From positions 1 to 27,099 of the IMG/VR virus record IMGVR_UViG_3300042691_031725: 27,099 bases of DNA, one strand, 5' to 3'. Of this stretch, positions 6,366-27,099 are shown one piece after another (the first letter of the stretch is position 1; every line of letters starts with the position of its first letter). This DNA is from a virus. The notes under the pieces were generated by a model. It was not told where the DNA came from and made no database searches. It worked only from the letters and a program-made list of their open reading frames with translations. The position numbers and the translations under genes are program-made.

Positions 6366-6989
6366 ATGAAAATTTCATATGCAATTACAGTCTGTAACGA
6401 ACTAGACGAAATAAAATATTTACTTGATTTTCTTCTTAATAACAAACATAAACAAGATGAAATTGTTGTGTTAATGGATACTACAAAGGCCACTGATGAG
6501 TTAATATCAACACTACGCCATTATGAAATGCACAACATGGATCATATGGTTGTATGGCCTGGAGAGTTTAAAGGACACTTTGCTGACTGGAAAAACAAAT
6601 TAACTTCATACTGCTCAGGAGACTACATCTTTCAAATTGATGCTGATGAGTTACCCAATGAACTATTAATAGAAAATCTTCATAGTATATTAGAAAACAA
6701 TGTAGATGTTATTTTAGTTCCTAGAGTAAATACAGTTCAAGGTATCACTCCCCAACATATTCAAGCTTGGGGTTGGAAACAAAATGAAAAAGGATGGATA
6801 CAGTGGCCTGATTTCCAATGGAGAATTTATAAAAATGATCCTGGAATTAAATGGATAAATGTAAAACATGAAATATTAGAGGGCTATAAGAGTTACGCTA
6901 ATTTACCAGAGTTAGAGGAGTATGCTTTGTATCATCATAAAACAATAGAAAGACAAGAAAAACAAAATAATTTTTATAGTACATTATGA
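6366..6989 (+). CDS. GT-A glycosyltransferase, GT2-like
   Basis: This 207-residue protein opens with KISYAITVCNELDEIKYLL, the classic GT2 first strand and helix, and carries a D-x-D metal and nucleotide-sugar site in FQIDADELPN (D92 and D94). The WKNKL segment before it fits the acceptor-side helix of this family. It is short compared with full GT2 enzymes but keeps the catalytic core. Just upstream (6331-6361) there is a weak promoter-like stretch (CTTG, 19 bases, TATATTGT), so it could have some independent transcription. It overlaps the next gene by ATGA. Confidence 0.8.
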   Translation: MKISYAITVCNELDEIKYLLDFLLNNKHKQDEIVVLMDTTKATDELISTLRHYEMHNMDHMVVWPGEFKGHFADWKNKLTSYCSGDYIFQIDADELPNELLIENLHSILENNVDVILVPRVNTVQGITPQHIQAWGWKQNEKGWIQWPDFQWRIYKNDPGIKWINVKHEILEGYKSYANLPELEEYALYHHKTIERQEKQNNFYSTL

Positions 6990-7798
6990 AAATATTTGTA
7001 AATCATTTTGATAAAGAGGTATTTAAGCAAAAACTAAACCATTTAAATCATATTGATTTTTCTTTATTTGTTGATTATTTACCTCAATCTCAAGAAGAAT
7101 TGTCTCCTATTAATATATTAGTATTACAAGAACCAAATGAATATTTTGGATATCATGATTGGGCTATTCAAAATAAACATTTATTTAATGTTATATTAAC
7201 TTGGGATGATAAAGTAATAAACAATTGTGATAACACACTGTTTTTACCTTTTGGTCATAGTTGGTTTAAACCAGACCAATATGAGACAACTCATGATAAA
7301 GTATTTCAAATTTCTCATCTGTGTGGTAAATTATTAAAAACTTATGGGCAATCTCTTAGACATGAGTTATTAGCTAGAGAAAATGAGATTAAAATACCTA
7401 CTAAATTTTTTGATGTTTATGGAGATAGATATAATATTGAAGATGCTAGAAAAGGCAAAGAAGAAGTATTTGGTGACTCAATGTTTGGAGTAGCTATTGA
7501 AAATACTTCTCATAATGGATATTTTACTGAGAAAATATTGGATTGTTTTTTATTAAAAACAATTCCTATATATTGGGGATGTTCTAATATAGATAACTTC
7601 TTTAATAAAGAAGGTATAATTAAATTTAGTAATATAGATGAATTTATTTATATTATTAATAACTTAAATGAAGATTATTATAATTCTAAAAAAGATATTA
7701 TTGAAGAGAACTACCAAAAAGCACTTCAATACGTTGACTACGAACAAAACATAGTAAATAAGATAACAGAAATATTCAAATTAAATAACTTAATATGA
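6986..7798 (+). CDS. GT10 (alpha-1,3-fucosyltransferase-like) glycosyltransferase
   Basis: This 270-residue protein shows the C-terminal GT10 signature in order: FGVAIENTSHNGYFTEKILDCF, with E172-N173 and T181-E182-K183, then IPIYWGCSNID with Y196-W197-G198. In GT10 enzymes this region binds the GDP-sugar donor, usually GDP-fucose. No GDP-fucose synthesis genes are seen in the window, so the donor would come from the host or be a different deoxysugar. Single-domain and without a membrane anchor, it resembles bacterial members such as Helicobacter FucT. It overlaps the preceding and following genes by 4 bases each. Confidence 0.8.
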   Translation: MKIFVNHFDKEVFKQKLNHLNHIDFSLFVDYLPQSQEELSPINILVLQEPNEYFGYHDWAIQNKHLFNVILTWDDKVINNCDNTLFLPFGHSWFKPDQYETTHDKVFQISHLCGKLLKTYGQSLRHELLARENEIKIPTKFFDVYGDRYNIEDARKGKEEVFGDSMFGVAIENTSHNGYFTEKILDCFLLKTIPIYWGCSNIDNFFNKEGIIKFSNIDEFIYIINNLNEDYYNSKKDIIEENYQKALQYVDYEQNIVNKITEIFKLNNLI

Positions 7799-8937
7799 AA
7801 AAAATATGGTATGCTCCTAATAAGTTTGAGTCTTATGGAGAACAAGAAATTCAAGCAGTAGTTGATTGTTTAAGAGATGGCTGGATAGCAGGATTTGGCC
7901 CTCGTTCAGTTGAATTTGAGGAAAAAATAGCTAAACATTTTGGTAAAAAATATGGTGTGTTTGTTAACTCTGGATCATCTGCTTGTTTATTGGCTTTAGC
8001 TAGTTTACAACTACCTAAGGGAACAAAAATCTTAACCCCTGCTTGTACTTTTTCAACCACATTAGCTCCTATTATTCAATTAGGATTAGTGCCTGTATTT
8101 GTAGATGTTGATTTAAATACTTATGTAGTTAATGTTGATGAAGTATTAGCTGCTATAACAGATGATGTTAAAGTATTGATGATACCTAACTTAATAGGTA
8201 ATAAACCAAATTGGAAAGCTATTAAAGATGGTTTAGTAGCTATGGATAGAGAAGATATTATTCTAATTGAAGACTCAGCTGATACAGTCACTCATACTCC
8301 TGAGACAGATATTGCTACTACAAGTTTTTATGCTTCTCATGTTATTACAGCAGGTGGACAAGGCGGAATGGTAATGTTTAATGATGAAAAATTACGTAAT
8401 GTTTGCCTACAGTTTAGAGACTGGGGACGTATTGGTGATAATTCAGAAGCTATGGCTGATAGGTTTAATCATAATGTAGATGGTATTCCTTATGACTATA
8501 AGTTTCTATATGGTGTTTTAGGATATAATATGAAAGCATCTGAAATGAATGCGGCTTTTGGTTTAGTTCAATTAGAACGTTTTAAAGAATTTGAAAAAAT
8601 CAGAAGAGCAAATATTGAAAGATATTTAGAGAATCTTAAAGATGTAAAAGAAATATTATTACCTGATGATAGTATTAAACCAAATTGGTTAGCAATACCT
8701 CTTCAAACAGAAAAACGATATGAGCTACTCCATTTCTTAGAAGAAAATAATATCCAAACCCGAGTAACATTTGCAGGCAATGTAACACGCCATCCAGTTT
8801 ATAGAGAATATCTTCAACCTTTTGAAAACTCTGATATTATTATGAAAAATGGTTTCTTGTTAGGAGCACATCATGGTATGACTATTGAAGATGTAGATTA
8901 TGTTTGTAATAAGATTAAAGAATTCTTTAGCAAATGA
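7795..8937 (+). CDS. DegT/DnrJ/EryC1-family sugar 3-dehydratase-type enzyme (His in place of PLP Lys)
   Basis: This 380-residue protein has the DegT fold: PGWIAGFGP-like N-terminus, VNSGSSACLLAL for phosphate binding, EDSADTV with D160 that holds the pyridine nitrogen, and a C-terminal GAHHGMT segment. At the position of the internal aldimine lysine, the sequence is SFYASHVITAGGQGG with H182. A His here is the hallmark of the PMP-dependent dehydratases ColD and E1/RfbH, which remove the C3 hydroxyl of 4-keto-6-deoxy sugars rather than transaminate them. The product would be a 3,6-dideoxy-4-ketohexose. It overlaps the 4,6-dehydratase gene by ATGA, its natural upstream partner in such pathways. 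Confidence 0.85.
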   Translation: MKKIWYAPNKFESYGEQEIQAVVDCLRDGWIAGFGPRSVEFEEKIAKHFGKKYGVFVNSGSSACLLALASLQLPKGTKILTPACTFSTTLAPIIQLGLVPVFVDVDLNTYVVNVDEVLAAITDDVKVLMIPNLIGNKPNWKAIKDGLVAMDREDIILIEDSADTVTHTPETDIATTSFYASHVITAGGQGGMVMFNDEKLRNVCLQFRDWGRIGDNSEAMADRFNHNVDGIPYDYKFLYGVLGYNMKASEMNAAFGLVQLERFKEFEKIRRANIERYLENLKDVKEILLPDDSIKPNWLAIPLQTEKRYELLHFLEENNIQTRVTFAGNVTRHPVYREYLQPFENSDIIMKNGFLLGAHHGMTIEDVDYVCNKIKEFFSK

Positions 8938-9881
8938 AAGTAGTATATATAACAGGTTGTTTGGGTTTTATAGGTTCCTACATCACCCGCACATGCCTTC
9001 AAAAAGGATGGTATGTTAAAGGTGTAGATAAAATAACTTACGCTGCTAACAAAGATTTATTGGATGAATTTAATCGATATGATAATTTTTCATTTGTTAA
9101 TTGCGATATAAACGATTTAAAGTTTCTTTATGATTGTGATTATATTATTAACACAGCAGCTGAAACTCATGTTGGTAACTCAATAGCTAACAGTGATGAA
9201 TTTGTATCCTCAAACATAAACGGAGTCCATAATTTATTAGAATTAATTCGCAATTATAGACAAGAAACTTCTAAAACTCCTATATTGCTTCATTTTAGTA
9301 CTGATGAAGTTTATGGCGATATAGAAAAGGGAGAACATACAGAAGAAGACCTATTAAAACCTTCTAACCCATACTCAGCTACTAAAGCAGCAGCGGATAT
9401 GTTAGTATTAGCTTGGGCTCGTACCTATAATTTACCTTATATTATAGTTCGACCTACTAACAACTATGGTATAGGTCAATATGTTGAAAAATTAATTCCT
9501 AAAGCATGTAAATATCTTAAATTAAGAAGAAAAATACCATTACATAATAATGGAACACCAATCCGAAATTGGTTGCATGCTCAAGACACAGCAAACGCAA
9601 TTATCACAATCATTGAATCAGGTATTGAAAATGAAATATATAACATTTGTGGAGGATTTGAACAATCAAATATCACTACTGTAGAAAAAATACTTAAAGA
9701 ATATTTTGGAGATTATGAAGTTTCTAGTTATATTGATTTATCATATAATAGACAAGGACAAGATGTTAGGTATGCTTTAGACGATTCTAAATTAAGAGCA
9801 TTAGGTTGGGAACCTAAAGCTAATTTTGATCAAGAATTAAAATATATAGTAGAATACTATAAAAATAAATTTATTTGGTAA
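8934..9881 (+). CDS. NDP-sugar 4,6-dehydratase, RmlB-like SDR
   Basis: This 315-residue extended SDR has the nucleotide-binding TGCLGFIGS near the N-terminus, VDKITYAAN (compare TYAGN of RmlB), the catalytic triad in FSTDEVYGD (T123, D124, E125), and Y147-x3-K151 in PYSATKAAAD. The triad with Glu after Asp is the dTDP-glucose 4,6-dehydratase pattern; CDP-glucose dehydratases usually have Lys there. It should convert an NDP-hexose to the NDP-4-keto-6-deoxyhexose, using bound NAD. The neighbouring His-type DegT enzyme would use that product. RNWLHAQDTANAI near residue 220 is also family-typical. Confidence 0.86.
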   Translation: MKVVYITGCLGFIGSYITRTCLQKGWYVKGVDKITYAANKDLLDEFNRYDNFSFVNCDINDLKFLYDCDYIINTAAETHVGNSIANSDEFVSSNINGVHNLLELIRNYRQETSKTPILLHFSTDEVYGDIEKGEHTEEDLLKPSNPYSATKAAADMLVLAWARTYNLPYIIVRPTNNYGIGQYVEKLIPKACKYLKLRRKIPLHNNGTPIRNWLHAQDTANAIITIIESGIENEIYNICGGFEQSNITTVEKILKEYFGDYEVSSYIDLSYNRQGQDVRYALDDSKLRALGWEPKANFDQELKYIVEYYKNKFIW

Positions 9882-9885
9882 AAAT

Positions 9886-10656
9886 ATGAAAACAGAAAAT
9901 CTCAATAATGATGTTATCTTATCATTAGCTAATAAAAATTTAATTAGTATAAAAACTTCTTTTGAAGATGAAGGAGCAGATTTTGTAGAAGTTTTATTTC
10001 TAAAAACATTTTGTGATAGGAATAATATTCCTCTTATATTAAAAATAAGTGGAGGTGAAGCTATTAGAGATATTAAAGATGCTAATAAAATGCAAATTAA
10101 AAAATTAGTAGCTCCAATGCTTGAATCTAAATTTGCTTTAGAAAAATATATCCAGAGTTGTGATAAGTATTATACTGTTTCTGATAATGAATTAGCTATA
10201 AATGTAGAATCAAAAGTATGTTATGATAATTTAAAAAATATTTCATTGTCTCCCTTATTCACAAGATTAACTAGCATTACAGTTGGGAGAGGAGATTTAG
10301 TGCAATCTATGGAATTAGATAGATATGATGGATCTGTAGATTCTGAGTTAGTATTAAATATATCTCGTGATGTGTTTAAAATAGCTAGAAAAAATAATTT
10401 AGGTTGTACTTTAGGTGGTTCAATGACTGTTTCATCTAAAGATTTTGTTTTAACACTTATTAATGAAGGACTATTAGATAAATTTGAAACTAGAAATGTT
10501 ATATTTGACAAAATGGCTTTACAATATTATGATTTTTCTACTTTAATACAAACTGCATTAGATTTTGAATTAAATTATTTGAAATCTAAAAGAGATTACT
10601 ATAATACTCTATATAATCAAGATATTAACAGAATCAATAAATTATCAAATAAATAA
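9886..10656 (+). CDS. HpcH/HpaI-type aldolase / citrate lyase family protein
   Basis: This 256-residue protein has the TIM-barrel aldolase pattern: LKISGGEAIRDIKDA, then LVAPMLESKFALEKYI with metal ligand E80, then LTSITVGRGDLVQSMELD with D137 as the second ligand. Family members cleave or form carbon-carbon bonds with pyruvate, acetyl or oxaloacetate donors and use a divalent metal. Such proteins occur in surface-polysaccharide clusters next to ThDP enzymes, and here the ThDP enzyme lies two genes downstream. Substrate is unknown. The C-terminal 50 residues are helical and charged beyond the barrel. It starts 4 bases after the preceding stop. Confidence 0.7.
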   Translation: MKTENLNNDVILSLANKNLISIKTSFEDEGADFVEVLFLKTFCDRNNIPLILKISGGEAIRDIKDANKMQIKKLVAPMLESKFALEKYIQSCDKYYTVSDNELAINVESKVCYDNLKNISLSPLFTRLTSITVGRGDLVQSMELDRYDGSVDSELVLNISRDVFKIARKNNLGCTLGGSMTVSSKDFVLTLINEGLLDKFETRNVIFDKMALQYYDFSTLIQTALDFELNYLKSKRDYYNTLYNQDINRINKLSNK

Positions 10657-10657
10657 T

Positions 10658-11050
10658 ATGGATTATAAACAAGTTATTAATCAAGATGAATATAATAATG
10701 TATGTATTGATTTTGATGGTGTAATACATGATAATTTTGATGGATTTGGAGATGGAACAATATATGGTCCAATCATTCCTGGAGCCAGTGAAGCTATTAA
10801 AACATTGTCCACTAAATATAATATTATAATTTTCACAGCTAAAGCCAAACCAGACCGTCCATTAATCAATGGAAAAAATGGTGTAGAATTAGTTTGGGAA
10901 TGGTTAATAAAACATAAACTAGATTCATATGTTAAACAAGTAACAGCTGAAAAACCAAGAGCTTTAACATATATTGATGATAAAGCAATTAGATTTACAG
11001 ATTGGAATTCAACATTATCACAATTTAAAGAACTATATGAGAGTATGTGA
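10658..11050 (+). CDS. HAD-superfamily phosphatase-like protein
   Basis: This 130-residue protein carries the HAD motifs: NVCIDFDGVIHD with nucleophile D18 and D20, IIIFTAKAK for motif II, the basic residue in VTAEKPRA, and LTYIDDKAIRF for motif IV. Small HAD proteins of this size lack a large cap and often act on phosphosugars or nucleotide-linked substrates; a role in the sugar pathway is likely but not proven. It starts 1 base after the aldolase stop, and its last 14 bases overlap the ATG chosen for the ThDP enzyme. Confidence 0.78.
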   Translation: MDYKQVINQDEYNNVCIDFDGVIHDNFDGFGDGTIYGPIIPGASEAIKTLSTKYNIIIFTAKAKPDRPLINGKNGVELVWEWLIKHKLDSYVKQVTAEKPRALTYIDDKAIRFTDWNSTLSQFKELYESM

Positions 11051-12770
11051 TTATATAGCTAGTTTTATAGCTAGTAAAAACATTAATTATGTATTTACAA
11101 TCCCAGGAGGCGGTTGTATCCATTTAAGTGATGCTTTTGCCCGACAAGAGTCAATACAAGTTGTAGTTAATCATCATGAACAAGCGTGTGCTTTATCAGC
11201 TGAAGGATACGCCAGGTTAAAAAATGAAGTTGGGGTATGTTTAGTCACATCAGGCCCTGGAGGCTCAAACACATGGACTGGTATATTATGCTCATATCAA
11301 GATAGCATACCAGTCATGACTATAAGTGGGAATGTTAATAAAAATCTAACTACTAATTATACTGGGTTAGAATTAAGGCAACTAGGTGATCAAGAATTTG
11401 ATGTTGTAAAAACAGTAAGTAATTTTACTAAATATGCTTATCAAGTCAATGAACCTGACACAATAAAATATCATCTTGAAAAAGCATATTATTTAGCAAC
11501 TAGTGGTAGACCAGGACCAGTTTGGTTAGACATACCCTTAGATGTACAATCAATTCAAATTGATCCTGATAAATTAATTGGGTATGATATTATTGAAGAA
11601 GAGTATTCTTTATCTCAGGACACTCTTACTTTAATACTTGATAAATTACATAACAGTAAGAAACCTTTAATTATAGCAGGCCATGGTGTTAGATTATCCA
11701 AATCTATCAATCTATTAAATGATATACTTGAAAAATACAAAATACCTGTAGTGACATCATTTAATGGTAATGACTCAGTGTCAAATGAATATGAATATTA
11801 CTGTGGTAGATTTGGTACTCATGCTCAAATAGCAGCGAATAAAATAGTGCAAGAAGCAGATTTTGTTTTAACTTTAGGTAGTAGATTATATGTACGACAA
11901 ATAGGATATAATTTTAAAAGTTTTGCCAAAAACGCTTTTAAAGTGTATGTAGATATAGATATAAATGAATTAAACAAACCCACTATCTTCCCAGATGTTA
12001 AAGTACATTATGATGTTTTTAAATTTTTAAATTTAATAAAAAATAACATTAATGTATCTGATATATCTGAATGGAGACAATATTGTAAAGACTTAATTAA
12101 GCAGCATCCAACTGTATTACAAAGACATAAAGAAAGTAAACCTTTAAGCATATATGCCTTTATAAATAGCTTGAACAATCAAATGAAATCTGATCTACCT
12201 GTAGTCACATCTGATGGGTCAGCTAATATAGTAGGAATGCAGGTACTTAAACTAAAAAAAAACCAACGCTTATTTAGTAATAAATCAACAGCTCCTATGG
12301 GTTATGGATTACCAGCAGCTATAGGAGCATGTTTTGCTAATAATAAGAAACAAATAATATGTTTAGAAGGTGATGGTAGTCTTCATATGAATATACATGA
12401 ATTACAAGTTGTATTTCAACATCAGCTGCCTATAAAAATATTTGTATTTAATAATGATGGTTATTTATCTATAAAAATTACACAAAAATCTTTTTGTAAT
12501 GGATTACTTTCATTATCAAATTCATCAAGTGGTTTAACATTACCATCATATAAAAAAATAGCTCAAGCATATAATATTCCTTATACCTCTATTAAAAATA
12601 ATAAAAATCTTCAACATCAAATAGATAAATGTTTTGATGTAACTGGGCCTCAAATAATTGAAATTTTTGTAGATCCTAATGAATTTCATGAACCTAAAGT
12701 GATGGCCCAAATAGATGATAATGGAAATTTTATCCCTGGAGAATTAGAGAATATAAAATGGATAAAATGA
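11037..12770 (+). CDS. Acetolactate synthase-like ThDP-dependent enzyme
   Basis: This 577-residue protein has the three-domain ThDP layout. The N-terminal pyrimidine domain carries VVNHHEQACALSAEGYAR with catalytic E48 and then VTSGPGGSNTWTG. A middle domain follows. The C-terminal pyrophosphate domain has LEGDGSLHMN (G445-D446-G447) and ends the motif at N472-N473. It decarboxylates a 2-keto acid and transfers the resulting two-carbon unit. Near a sugar 3-dehydratase this recalls YerE, which adds a two-carbon branch to a keto-sugar in yersiniose synthesis. The upstream ATG at 10974 lies inside the HAD gene, so 11037 (MRVCDYIASF) is preferred. FAD binding cannot be judged. Confidence 0.85.
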   Translation: MRVCDYIASFIASKNINYVFTIPGGGCIHLSDAFARQESIQVVVNHHEQACALSAEGYARLKNEVGVCLVTSGPGGSNTWTGILCSYQDSIPVMTISGNVNKNLTTNYTGLELRQLGDQEFDVVKTVSNFTKYAYQVNEPDTIKYHLEKAYYLATSGRPGPVWLDIPLDVQSIQIDPDKLIGYDIIEEEYSLSQDTLTLILDKLHNSKKPLIIAGHGVRLSKSINLLNDILEKYKIPVVTSFNGNDSVSNEYEYYCGRFGTHAQIAANKIVQEADFVLTLGSRLYVRQIGYNFKSFAKNAFKVYVDIDINELNKPTIFPDVKVHYDVFKFLNLIKNNINVSDISEWRQYCKDLIKQHPTVLQRHKESKPLSIYAFINSLNNQMKSDLPVVTSDGSANIVGMQVLKLKKNQRLFSNKSTAPMGYGLPAAIGACFANNKKQIICLEGDGSLHMNIHELQVVFQHQLPIKIFVFNNDGYLSIKITQKSFCNGLLSLSNSSSGLTLPSYKKIAQAYNIPYTSIKNNKNLQHQIDKCFDVTGPQIIEIFVDPNEFHEPKVMAQIDDNGNFIPGELENIKWIK

Positions 12771-13540
12771 AAATATTAATTACAGGTGGAAATGGTTATA
12801 TAGCTAAAAGTCTTTATAATTCTTTAAAAGATAAACATGATATAACTTGTATCACAAGACAAGATTTTGACCTAATCAACTCTTCTGAGACACTAAAATA
12901 TTTTTCAGATAAACACTTTGATGTTATTATTCATTGCGCGGTAAGTGGAGGCAGTAGACTAAGACCAGACAGTTGTAATGATATGGATAATAATCTTAAA
13001 ATGTATTATAACTTATTAAACTGTAAAAACAAGTTTAAAAAATTAATCCATTTTGGCTCAGGAGCAGAAATAAACACCCCTGAATCACCATATGGCTTAA
13101 GTAAAAAAATTATCGCTAAATCTATTTCAGAGATAGATAATTTTTATAATATTAAAATATTTGCTGTGTTTGATGAGAATGAATTAGATACTAGATTTAT
13201 TAAAGGAAATATAAAACATTATATAAATAAAGAACCTATAATTATTCATCAAGATAAATGGATGGACTTCTTTTACATGAAAGATTTGATTTCTTTAGTA
13301 GATTATTATATCAATAATGATGATCCACCTAAACAAATAGATTGCTCATATATTAAATTGTATAAATTATCTGATATAGCTAACATTATTAATGATTTAG
13401 GTGAATATAAAGTAGATGTTAAAATTGAAAATAATGAATTAGGATTAACATATTGTGGAGAATCTAACATGCTGCTAGATTTTATAGGATTAGAACAAGG
13501 AATTAAAGAAGTTTATAATCAATTAAAAAATGAATATTAA
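12767..13540 (+). CDS. NAD(P)-dependent sugar epimerase/reductase (SDR)
   Basis: This 257-residue SDR begins MKILITGGNGYIAKS, the glycine-rich nucleotide-binding turn, and has IIHCAVSGG, IHFGSGAE and the Y109-x3-K113 active-site pair in SPYGLSKK. It is shorter than full epimerases. Its place directly behind the ThDP enzyme resembles the YerE-YerF order, where an SDR reduces the branched keto-sugar; that parallel is inference. An in-frame ATG at 12758 is possible, but 12767 gives the exact 4-base ATGA overlap that is the rule in this operon. It overlaps the next gene by 11 bases. Confidence 0.78.
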   Translation: MKILITGGNGYIAKSLYNSLKDKHDITCITRQDFDLINSSETLKYFSDKHFDVIIHCAVSGGSRLRPDSCNDMDNNLKMYYNLLNCKNKFKKLIHFGSGAEINTPESPYGLSKKIIAKSISEIDNFYNIKIFAVFDENELDTRFIKGNIKHYINKEPIIIHQDKWMDFFYMKDLISLVDYYINNDDPPKQIDCSYIKLYKLSDIANIINDLGEYKVDVKIENNELGLTYCGESNMLLDFIGLEQGIKEVYNQLKNEY

Positions 13541-14441
13541 AATTATATACCATATAATGCCGTGGGAAATAGATTACGCCCTATTATCTTTCATTCAACT
13601 AAAAAAATCTAAATACTATCTATCAGATGATGTTAATATTATAGTTGAAACAGTATTAAATTTATCTTCTTATATTATAGACTGGAATAAAAGTAAACTT
13701 CCTAAAGAATTTTTTATTGAGAAATATAATCAAATATCTAATTTATTAATTGATTATACCCATAACAAAAAAATATATGACGGAGATAAATTATATGGAC
13801 ATTTAGATTTACAAAAAAATTGTGTATCTAAAGAAGTTGATTACTATATTGGAATATGCCCAGACATGTACTTCAGTGAATATTTGCTATATTACATGAT
13901 TGAAGGAATTAAAAATATTAAAGATAAATATTTCGTATTATCTCCTCAACATAGAAAAATGTCAGATTTTAGTTGGGATCCAACTACATCCCCTGACTTT
14001 CTTGATGTGCCATATTCTCAATGTAATAATATTGATGTTTTTGATTTAAGAATTCAAGATCAAAATAAAGATACTTCTATAATTCAAGTCTCTGATGGAA
14101 AATGGGCTGGGTGGTTTGATTTGTATAGTAAATCATTTTATGAAGATCTATGCCCTATCCAAGACGATTGGTCAGGTTATGGGCCTTGGGATTGGTATAG
14201 TTTAATATTAACAAACATAGCTAAACAAAATGGGTTAGATTTTAAACGTTATGTAGTTAACGGCCAAACAATAGGAGAATATTGGACTGGAGTTTTATTA
14301 GAAAAAGATGGATTTTCAGGTTATTATAAAAACTTCATAACCAAAAATATTATCCCTAACCAGAGAGAAATATTTGAATCTAATATGGAATCATACGTTA
14401 TTAAAGGTGTTAAAATGTTACAAGACAAAAATATTATATGA
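13530..14441 (+). CDS. Putative GT-A-like glycosyltransferase of unrecognised family
   Basis: This 303-residue protein begins NIKIIYHIMPWEIDYALLSFIQLKKS, resembling enzymes that open with a strand and an acidic loop, and has YYIGICPDMYFSEYLLYYM around residues 106-120. The D112 position could act like the metal-site aspartate of a GT-A fold. The motif WDPTTSPDFLDVP and the aromatic segment DDWSGYGPWDWYSL near residue 210 are conserved-looking but not identified. It has no membrane helix. Placement between sugar-nucleotide genes supports a glycan role. The family assignment is tentative, and a related binding or modifying protein is possible. Confidence 0.5.
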   Translation: MNIKIIYHIMPWEIDYALLSFIQLKKSKYYLSDDVNIIVETVLNLSSYIIDWNKSKLPKEFFIEKYNQISNLLIDYTHNKKIYDGDKLYGHLDLQKNCVSKEVDYYIGICPDMYFSEYLLYYMIEGIKNIKDKYFVLSPQHRKMSDFSWDPTTSPDFLDVPYSQCNNIDVFDLRIQDQNKDTSIIQVSDGKWAGWFDLYSKSFYEDLCPIQDDWSGYGPWDWYSLILTNIAKQNGLDFKRYVVNGQTIGEYWTGVLLEKDGFSGYYKNFITKNIIPNQREIFESNMESYVIKGVKMLQDKNII

Positions 14442-15793
14442 TAAAATTAGTTATATTTGATTTAGATGGTGTATTAGTAGAAGCTAAACAAATACATTAT
14501 GAAGCTTTAAATAAAGCACTAGGAGAAAAATACTCTATATCTTGGGATGAACATTTATCAGTTTATGATGGTTTAAAAACAAATCAAAAATTAGATATGT
14601 TAACTGAGAGAAAAGGTTTACCTATTAACACTCATAAACAAATTTGGAATGATAAGCAGAAATATACTTTAAAAGCATTATCTAATCTTCAACCCAATAC
14701 ACAATTGCAGGTTTGTATGGATTCACTTATTGCTAATGGATATAAATTAGCAGTTTGTAGTAATAGTATTCGTAAAACAGTATTAACTGTATTGTCTAAG
14801 TTTGATATCATTGATCGTTTTGATTTAATATTATCAAATGAAGATGTTAATAATAGTAAACCACATCCTGAAATGTATTGGAAAGCGATGAGTATGATGG
14901 GATGTTTACCTGAAGAGACTTTAATTGTTGAAGATTCACCTTATGGATTACTAGCAGCTAGTAGGAGTAAAGCTAGTATAATGAGAGTTGGCTCTCCAAA
15001 AGATATTACTTATAATAATATCTATAAACATTTAAATAAAGAAAAAACAAATATGACACCTAAATGGAAAGATGAAAAACTTAATGTTTTAATTCCAATG
15101 GCGGGTGCTGGTTCTAGATTTGAACAGGCCGGATATACATTTCCAAAACCACTTATTGAGGTTAAAAATAAACCTATGATTCAAGTTGTGATTGAGAATC
15201 TAAACTTAGAAGCTAATTATATATATGTTGTACAAAAAGCACATCGTGAGAAATATAATCTAGATACATTATTAAACCTACTAACTCCTGGGTGTAAAAT
15301 AGTGGAAACAGATGGTTTAACTGAAGGAGCAGCGTGTACTGCATTATTAGCCAAAGAATATATTAACAATAATAACCCACTATTTTTTGCCAATTCAGAT
15401 CAATTTGTTGAATGGGATTCAAATGAATTCATGTATAAAATGAATGAAACTGATGCTGATGGGGGTATAGTCACATTTACAGCCACACATCCAAAATGGT
15501 CATTTGCTAAAATAGATGAAAAAGGATTAGTAACTGAAGTAGCAGAGAAAAATCCAATATCAGATATAGCAACAGTAGGTTATTATTATTGGAAACATGG
15601 TTCTGATTTTGTTAAATATGCTGAGCAAATGATTGATAAAAATATTCGAGTAAATAATGAATTTTATGTATGCCCAGTATTTAATCAAGCAATTGAAGAT
15701 TGTAAACAAATTAGAACATTCAACACATCTGGAATGTGGGGATTGGGGACACCTGAAGATTTAAAGTATTATTTAGAAAATTATAAAAAATGA
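14438..15793 (+). CDS. Fusion of HAD phosphatase/mutase and sugar nucleotidyltransferase
   Basis: This 451-residue protein joins two domains. Residues 1-200 are a beta-phosphoglucomutase-type HAD domain: LVIFDLDGVLVE with D8 and D10, AVCSNSIRK, NSKPHPEMY and IVEDSPYG. Residues 214-451 are a nucleotidyltransferase domain: VLIPMAGAGSRF (A222-R227), the Lys of FPKPLIEV near 237, and FANSDQF with the metal aspartate. It would make or trim a sugar phosphate and activate it as an NDP-sugar. An in-frame ATG at 15053, behind an A-rich stretch, could start the second domain separately. It is the only nucleotidyltransferase in the window, so it may supply the donor for the deoxysugar branch. Confidence 0.84.
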   Translation: MIKLVIFDLDGVLVEAKQIHYEALNKALGEKYSISWDEHLSVYDGLKTNQKLDMLTERKGLPINTHKQIWNDKQKYTLKALSNLQPNTQLQVCMDSLIANGYKLAVCSNSIRKTVLTVLSKFDIIDRFDLILSNEDVNNSKPHPEMYWKAMSMMGCLPEETLIVEDSPYGLLAASRSKASIMRVGSPKDITYNNIYKHLNKEKTNMTPKWKDEKLNVLIPMAGAGSRFEQAGYTFPKPLIEVKNKPMIQVVIENLNLEANYIYVVQKAHREKYNLDTLLNLLTPGCKIVETDGLTEGAACTALLAKEYINNNNPLFFANSDQFVEWDSNEFMYKMNETDADGGIVTFTATHPKWSFAKIDEKGLVTEVAEKNPISDIATVGYYYWKHGSDFVKYAEQMIDKNIRVNNEFYVCPVFNQAIEDCKQIRTFNTSGMWGLGTPEDLKYYLENYKK

Positions 15794-26391: not shown

Positions 26392-26628
26392 ATGAAAAAT
26401 ATAATAATTCTAAATAATACTCCATTCTTTATTGTTAGAGATGTTTGGGTAGGTAAATTTATTGATAATATTAATGGAGGTAAAATACTTACTGACCTTA
26501 TTGAGTTATGGAAAGAATATACTGAAACTGATTTTGTTTATCAAAACGGTGAAAGAGTATTATTTTTAAAAAATATAGACGAACCAGAATGGTTTGAAAT
26601 CCAAGATATAAATGAAGAACAATTATAA
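26392..26628 (+). CDS. Small acidic protein of unknown function
   Basis: This 78-residue protein has a strand start (NIIILNNTPFFIVRDVWVGKF), a helix (ILTDLIELWKEYTETDF) and an acidic end. It has one of the rare Shine-Dalgarno-like leads in the window, GGGAGG ahead of the ATG. It overlaps the ClpP-like gene by 17 bases. Not recognised. Confidence 0.6.
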   Translation: MKNIIILNNTPFFIVRDVWVGKFIDNINGGKILTDLIELWKEYTETDFVYQNGERVLFLKNIDEPEWFEIQDINEEQL

Positions 26629-27099
26629 TCCAAACAATAAGACATTTAGAACAATTGTTTTAAGTGGTGAAATAGATGAGTCATCTGTTAAAGATGCTAT
26701 TCAAACTATTTCATTCATAAATGAAATTGATAATGGTAAAGATGAAGTTGAACCTATAAAACTAATCATTAATAGTTTAGGTGGTAATATACTTGATGGT
26801 TTTGCTTTAATAGGTGTTATAGAAAACTCATTTGTTCCTGTCTACACATACGGTTATGGATCAATAATGTCAATGGCCTTACCTATATTAGTTTCTGGTG
26901 ATAAACGTTTTGGACATCAATTAGCTACATTTATGTATCATGAATGCTTGGATAGTGTACCTTATGATAAAATGTCTGTTATAAAAGAAAATATAGAAGA
27001 AACAGATCGATTAATGTCAATGTATGATAAATATCTCATCTCCAGAACATCACTGACTCAAAAACAGTTAAATAAAGTTAAGAATAAAAAAACTGACTG
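26612..27099 (+). CDS. ClpP-like serine protease (3' partial)
   Basis: The 162 visible residues show the ClpP fold: FRTIVLSGEID, IKLIINSLGGNILDGFALIGVI, the nucleophile region YGYGSIMSMALPIL with S87, and FMYHECLD with H110. The third triad member is expected about 50 residues after the His; D162, the last visible residue, is a fair candidate. In phages such proteins may act as head-maturation proteases or as ClpP-like cytosolic proteases. No portal or capsid gene is seen near enough to decide. It starts within the preceding gene, overlapping by 17 bases, and is cut by the window edge. Confidence 0.85.
   Translation, partial: MKNNYNPNNKTFRTIVLSGEIDESSVKDAIQTISFINEIDNGKDEVEPIKLIINSLGGNILDGFALIGVIENSFVPVYTYGYGSIMSMALPILVSGDKRFGHQLATFMYHECLDSVPYDKMSVIKENIEETDRLMSMYDKYLISRTSLTQKQLNKVKNKKTD

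Follow-up and report, generated by a model that had tools for sequence, protein, structure and literature searches.

Yersiniose, erwiniose and caryophyllose are C4-branched 3,6-dideoxyhexoses whose branch is attached by a thiamine diphosphate (ThDP)-dependent carboligase; their characterised routes use cytidine diphosphate (CDP) sugars for bacterial surface glycans. The yersiniose pathway includes RfbF and RfbG, and encodes its 3-dehydratase, carboligase and short-chain dehydrogenase/reductase (SDR) together. JanthE, a YerE-like enzyme, joins 2-oxo acids to ketones and accepts several 2-oxo acids (PMC12188165), and hydroxylated 2-oxo acids are used by both ErwE and JanthE (PMC12247030, PMC12188165). 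Branching of keto sugars is also known or proposed for two further ThDP classes, the transketolases and alpha-KADH2 (KbDH) (PMC12247030). The same 2025 review is silent on phages, and viruses appear in it only as a source still to be explored (PMC12247030). Our literature searches found no description of phage YerE-like enzymes or of gene modules for their donor acids, and the two papers searched for the caryophyllose cluster gave no gene list for it. YerE-like branching enzymes have been described from bacteria; a phage-encoded, modular version is predicted here. It is based on a six-gene operon (positions 7795-13540) in the 27,099-base virus record IMGVR_UViG_3300042691_031725, the whole of which is called the window below.

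The operon is predicted to be one variant of a larger modular phage system for carbon-branched deoxysugars. Taken as a whole, and not in every detail at once, a modular phage route to C4-branched 3,6-dideoxysugars has a probability of about 0.68 in our estimate. A carbon-branched product is highly likely, and its 3,6-dideoxy character only slightly less so. Hundreds of related aquatic phage sequences carry the same gene set, with swapped parts that probably change the branch. Gene content, families, motifs, co-occurrence and trees were computed; the reactions, like the carrier, donor and target of the sugar, are all inferred from them. The six genes are as follows.

7795..8937, + strand: DegT-fold pyridoxamine 5'-phosphate (PMP)-dependent 3-dehydratase, predicted C3 deoxygenation (PDB matches, H182, no [2Fe-2S] cysteines, structure model)
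8934..9881, + strand: RmlB-type nucleoside diphosphate (NDP)-hexose 4,6-dehydratase, predicted to use deoxythymidine diphosphate (dTDP) sugar (TIGR01181, PDB 2hun, TDE and YxxxK motifs)
9886..10656, + strand: HpcH/HpaI-like TIM barrel of the (phosphoenol)pyruvate superfamily, predicted to form the donor, a 2-oxo acid, by joining pyruvate to an aldehyde (PF03328, structure model, E108/D137)
10658..11050, + strand: small HAD-type hydrolase, predicted to dephosphorylate the donor acid (motifs, phrog_1238)
11037..12770, + strand: YerE-like ThDP carboligase, predicted to transfer the decarboxylated 2-oxo acid to a C4 ketone (8rph match, tree)
12758..13540, + strand: SDR reductase, predicted YerF-like, acting on the new side-chain ketone (PF01370, S/Y/K motif, co-occurrence in 132/132 loci)

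All six genes are intact. Adjacent genes overlap by 4-14 bases or are separated by 1-4 bases, and the overlapping run extends into the genes at 13530 and 14438. The first-pass annotation had described a tight six-gene operon with an aldolase-like and a HAD gene between the sugar genes, and these intact, overlapping or abutting genes bear it out. The ThDP gene starts at ATG 11037; a TTG at 10974 gives a longer reading. Pfam and NCBIfam matched every operon family name except that of the small HAD protein (10658-11050), which had no Pfam match and was named from its motifs. The nearest phage relative is L003, an independent contig with the same RmlB-HpcH-HAD-ThDP-SDR order at 60-78% identity (L numbers denote related loci and their records). 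Because this order recurs in L003, the operon gene set is not a product of chance.

Homologues were collected by IMG/VR scans (80 loci for DegT, the best 80 of at least 527 for the ThDP alignment, and the best 80 of 311 for the SDR). The catalytic motifs noted earlier in the window proteins hold on these alignments. T123-D124-E125 and Y147xxxK151 of the RmlB-like enzyme were found in 77/77 distinct phage homologues. E48 and N472-N473 of the ThDP enzyme were each kept in 78/78 homologues, and its GDG (G445-D446-G447) in most. The SDR matches PF01370, and S101/Y112/K116 were present in 83-84 of 84 homologues. A T4-type major capsid protein was detected in six of the 14 phage records searched.

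On the proposed route, RmlB would convert host dTDP-glucose to a 4-keto-6-deoxy sugar, from which the DegT enzyme (H182) would remove the C3 hydroxyl in the manner of ColD, with PMP and glutamate. HpcH would couple pyruvate with an aldehyde that may be a sugar phosphate, and the HAD protein would take off the phosphate to give a 4-hydroxy-2-oxo acid. The YerE-like enzyme would decarboxylate this acid and add the acyl unit to the C4 ketone, the SDR would reduce the new side-chain ketone, and a phage glycosyltransferase would then transfer the branched sugar to its target. Across related phages, the RmlB/DegT/SDR frame would remain constant, with the ThDP carboligase and its donor genes exchanged as a unit. 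A yersiniose-type route had been suggested at first. Its C-branched 3,6-dideoxysugar with YerE logic is supported, JanthE being the nearest enzyme and the SDR always accompanied by a carboligase; its two-carbon branch, as first worded, is not. Compared with YerE-like clusters, RmlB replaces RfbF/RfbG as the sole dehydratase of this type in the window, and HpcH and HAD lie between the genes.

The best PDB match of the ThDP enzyme was 8rph (361 bits), cited as a JanthE structure (PMC12188165), followed by acetolactate synthase 5ahk (260 bits) and IlvB 6lpi (226 bits). The comparison with JanthE and acetolactate synthases therefore favours a YerE-like enzyme, as first proposed. A quickly built tree of 154 sequences, in which some branches are long, placed JanthE among bacterial and phage homologues in a set that excludes acetolactate synthase and IlvB (Shimodaira-Hasegawa-like approximate likelihood ratio test, SH-aLRT, 100). 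The window enzyme sits there in a phage-only set of 60, apart from the ordinary acetolactate synthases. It shares with the JanthE/YerE-like lyases of the decarboxylase superfamily (YpYerE, ErwE) a common sequence family, the ThDP motifs and the 3-dehydratase-carboligase-SDR cluster logic. It differs from JanthE in being phage-encoded, in having GDG instead of CDG, and in its 34% identity. That the enzyme is a common acetolactate synthase, serving branched-chain amino acid synthesis as an auxiliary metabolic function, is scarcely credible. The best NCBIfam matches are indeed acetolactate synthases, but at 337 bits against a cut-off of 738, and PDB matches and tree place the enzyme with JanthE, so this candidate was rejected. 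The operon showed neither a small subunit gene nor any other gene for branched-chain amino acids, and the enzyme is accompanied by sugar enzymes and the SDR. Among 50,697 phage records, no ThDP match exceeded 31% over most of the length, and one reached 39% over a 30% fragment; several of the best-matching ThDP records in that set were clearly bacterial sequence. HpcH had no match in the same records, so phage isolates yielded no annotated relative.

A ThDP carboligase was present in all 132 distinct SDR loci when counted within 5 kb upstream or 1.5 kb downstream of the SDR: 96 were YerE-like, 22 transketolase, 10 E1, and 4 YerE-like plus E1. The loci from the SDR scan alone gave 41/41. SDR loci without a YerE-like gene, an apparent counter-example, carried a split transketolase (PF00456 and PF02779 over cut-off) or an E1alpha/E1beta pair in the same slot. 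These counterparts of the transketolase and alpha-KADH2 branching enzymes are not present in the window. The split transketolase (approximately 205 + 157 residues) lies between DegT/RmlB and SDR at L034:11140-12215 and in L006, L011, L024, L026, L032, L035 and L049. E1alpha/E1beta (alpha-KADH2-like) precede the SDR at L061:11029-12199 and in L094, L097, L269 and L280, sometimes with a YerE-like gene.

The genes beside the YerE-like enzyme vary. They encode PanB, MhpF (acetaldehyde dehydrogenase) with MhpE (4-hydroxy-2-oxovalerate aldolase), a DRE-TIM aldolase-like protein, a NeuB-like protein, or HpcH with a HAD or an AroB-like protein. PanB exceeded both NCBIfam cut-offs, and MhpF and MhpE each exceeded theirs. 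All of these families (PanB, MhpF/MhpE, DRE-TIM aldolase, NeuB and HpcH) make or handle 2-oxo acids, and we refer to their genes as donor genes. They were found in 25/29 phage DegT loci with a ThDP gene and in 0/51 without one; likewise, in 87/96 YerE-like loci against 0/32 transketolase or E1alpha/E1beta loci. Such a restriction to YerE-like loci would follow from reduction of the branch ketone by the SDR, with a special acid required by the YerE-like enzymes alone. Each of the 32 HpcH loci had exactly one of HAD (9) or an AroB-like gene (23), never both or neither, as if the two were alternative means of phosphate removal. L008:17074-19698 and L029 carry DJ-1/PfpI, cupin-like and HAD genes beside the YerE-like gene, and L008 also has a malate/lactate-type dehydrogenase; this set appears to be a further donor module.

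Bacterial homologues of the ThDP enzyme adjoin RfbF/RfbG/RfbH and the same donor enzymes as the phages. They often lie near CDP-glucose synthase (a cluster of 36 genes), CDP-glucose dehydratase and RfbH, which is the neighbourhood of the known YerE enzymes. The product of an HpcH or NeuB enzyme might itself be the sugar, a 2-keto-3-deoxy acid acting as the ThDP substrate in place of an NDP-4-keto sugar, and such acids are formed by these enzymes in known pathways. Against this, the transketolase and E1 versions retain RmlB, DegT and SDR without HpcH or NeuB, and the bacterial homologues are located in CDP-3,6-dideoxyhexose clusters, so a keto-acid sugar is very improbable.

The donor genes of one group could be compared with a measured activity. 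MhpE yields 4-hydroxy-2-oxovalerate. JanthE is reported to accept this acid with benzaldehyde and has an uncommon CDG motif (PMC12188165). In the set analysed, CDG marked a clade and was confined to JanthE, the bacterial enzymes of L222 and L223 (60-64% identical to JanthE) and six phage enzymes. MhpF-MhpE genes adjoin both of these bacterial enzymes and three of the phage ones; the other three phage enzymes have no donor genes. The gene neighbours of close relatives of JanthE thus predict a donor that agrees with one measured for JanthE. If the modular route is correct, phages would be a rich source of carboligases, each with its natural donor acid readable from the adjoining genes, and the physiological donors of enzymes such as JanthE would become directly testable.

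On the ThDP tree, donor type changed at least 10 times in phages (shuffled, 42) and 16 times with bacteria included (shuffled, 58.5). On the SDR tree, donor type changed 63 times (shuffled, 86.5) and carboligase class 23 times (shuffled, 30); this was a fast tree of a 260-residue protein over a larger locus set than the ThDP tree, and its change counts are upper-end estimates. The counts on the two trees argue that the ThDP enzyme and its donor genes move together within an SDR frame that is retained. We lean slightly towards a still wider picture. Aquatic T4-like phages would combine a fixed frame of 4,6-dehydratase, 3-dehydratase and side-chain reductase with one of three ThDP carboligase classes, the YerE-like class with one of at least six donor-acid modules, and lineages would switch the branch, plausibly under selection by host defence or receptor recognition; the window variant would be long-branched through the HpcH/HAD acid. 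Modules for phage glycans would then be exchanged rapidly, and this would point to a function in evasion or recognition.

The donor acid of the window phage depends on HpcH and HAD. The HpcH model (predicted local distance difference test, pLDDT, 88) is a pyruvate-superfamily barrel, with fold matches to SbnG, HpaI/HpcH and pyruvate kinase. Two acidic residues that follow barrel strands, E108 and D137, do not vary among 37 homologues and are candidates for the metal site. By our reading, a conserved Lys53 in LKISGG may stand where the HpaI arginine would be expected. The HAD protein matches phrog_1238 and keeps its DxD, T/S, K and DD motifs in 15 homologues. From these features we infer that HpcH acts as a pyruvate aldolase and that HAD dephosphorylates its product, so that the branch would exceed two carbons. 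A donor acid other than pyruvate is fairly probable. Caryophyllose, which carries a tetrahydroxyhexyl branch (PMC5706390), may serve as a natural precedent for a long branch.

Alternatively, pyruvate could be used directly, giving a two-carbon branch (acetyl, then hydroxyethyl) as in yersiniose, with HpcH and HAD serving something else. Pyruvate is accepted by JanthE and YpYerE (PMC12188165, PMC12247030), and L002 has an enzyme of the same ThDP clade without HpcH/HAD. However, HpcH and HAD lie directly between RmlB and ThDP in the window and L003, they precede the ThDP gene in other phages of two separate ThDP clades, and no donor gene occurs in the 32 transketolase/E1 loci, where a special acid would be unneeded. 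We therefore regard direct use of pyruvate as unlikely. The two-carbon branch of the first-pass annotation is not borne out: HpcH and HAD recur as the donor module of the window's ThDP clade, which makes the longer branch likelier. That annotation had correctly placed the aldolase and HAD genes between the sugar genes, but the same recurrence speaks against their being bystanders.

Several results weigh against the proposed route. The PF03328 score of HpcH is 27 bits, barely above the cut-off of 25; HpcH had no PDB sequence match, and its fold fails to separate an aldolase (HpaI) from SbnG or pyruvate kinase. The ThDP enzyme of L002 is 72% identical to that of the window and has no HpcH/HAD nearby; either donor genes are dispensable or they are located elsewhere. 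Proximity to ThDP genes was the ground on which the reference donor proteins were selected, and this favours the linkage counts. Finally, the RmlB-like enzyme scored 306 bits with TIGR01181, its best dehydratase model, under the cut-off of 365, and no dTDP-glucose synthase (RmlA) exceeded cut-off in the 14 related phage records.

With no RmlA, RfbF or RfbG over cut-off in these records, the nucleotide sugar would have to come from the host, dTDP-glucose being the likeliest. The RmlB-like enzyme scored 239 bits against PDB 2hun and only 76 bits with the CDP-type model TIGR02622. CDP-glucose synthase and dehydratase (TIGR02623/TIGR02622) were over cut-off in 0/14 phage records, which are fragments, and both exceeded it in the bacterial record of L170. 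The earlier suggestion of a dTDP-type instead of a CDP-type carrier is supported by the presence of RmlB and the absence of over-cut-off CDP-glucose genes, and a dTDP carrier is likely on these gene contents. A Wzx-type flippase was not found in the 14 records, many of them fragments. Its absence speaks against an O-antigen route run by the phage and in favour of a target in the cytosol, for instance a virion protein or DNA. These records thus differ from the characterised bacterial routes in lacking both CDP genes and Wzx. Thymidylate-synthase-type genes, a hint of modified DNA, occurred in only some records, and no conclusion was drawn from them.

The DegT enzymes known to have a histidine-for-lysine change (E1, ColD and SpnQ) act as 3-dehydratases of 4-keto-6-deoxy sugars; ColD requires no separate reductase. 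The best PDB sequence matches of the window DegT were E1/RfbH (CDP-4-keto-6-deoxyglucose 3-dehydrase; 3bcx, 222 bits) and, farther off, ColD (GDP-4-keto-6-deoxymannose 3-dehydratase; 145 bits). H182, which corresponds to His220 of E1, replaces the pyridoxal 5'-phosphate (PLP) lysine in the window DegT and in every distinct phage relative of its type checked by alignment. The four [2Fe-2S] cysteines of E1 are absent from it, as they are from ColD. Since it has no Fe-S cysteines, the enzyme should act in the ColD fashion, probably with PMP and glutamate. An E3 reductase (PF00175) was found neither in the 14 phage records nor in the bacterial comparison record. Among the Foldseek PDB matches of the DegT model, E1 ranked first and ColD fifth, among other DegT folds; the model has a moderate pLDDT of 73, its loop 210-246 is poorly modelled, and it served for fold ranking only. 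The likeness to ColD and E1/RfbH claimed at first thus holds for the histidine but not for the Fe-S cysteines of E1, and the ColD-like mechanism is read from the missing cysteines and not from the model, in which E1 is closest. Some related phages (e.g., L002 and L003) carry a 437-residue RfbH-like DegT with cysteines instead of the window type.

The DegT enzyme could also belong to a separate sugar route, leaving the branched sugar a 6-deoxy and not a 3,6-dideoxy hexose. Neither SDR nor carboligase accompanies the window-type DegT in 44 distinct loci, and the DegT genes of L002 and L003 lie several kilobases from the ThDP gene. Yet DegT is immediately 5' of RmlB or the carboligase in many loci, and RfbH is carried by the bacterial homologues. 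Moreover, the two His types substitute for one another, as would enzymes of a common step: 98 SDR loci were assignable to a single type, 49 each, and no deduplicated ThDP locus had both. A 6-deoxy product is distinctly improbable, and the 3,6-dideoxy product remains our preferred reading. Elsewhere, at L012:11140-14597 and in L038 and L040, the same DegT is not directly before RmlB or the carboligase and precedes another gene set. By inspection, this set comprises a cupin-like protein, a ketosynthase- or acetyltransferase-like protein, a short DegT-like protein and a GDP-mannose-dehydratase-like SDR, which suggests a further sugar route.

Family searches showed that the operon is flanked on both sides by glycosyltransferases and methyltransferases. 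Two neighbours may be connected with it.

6986..7798, + strand: GT10-like glycosyltransferase, candidate user of the sugar (PF00852; directly 5' of DegT in many relatives)
14438..15793, + strand: fusion of HAD and nucleoside triphosphate (NTP)-transferase domains, pathway role uncertain (PF13419 and PF00483; also in L021, L027, L029 and L030)

The fused protein joins a HAD phosphatase-like domain to a sugar nucleotidyltransferase-like domain and is 76-85% conserved in several related phages. Two further window genes are conserved in related phages: 3-479, which by inspection resembles an AAA clamp-loader subunit, and 1996-2925, which by inspection resembles a PD-(D/E)XK nuclease. At the right edge of the window, 26612-27097 encodes a ClpP-like protease (PF00574).

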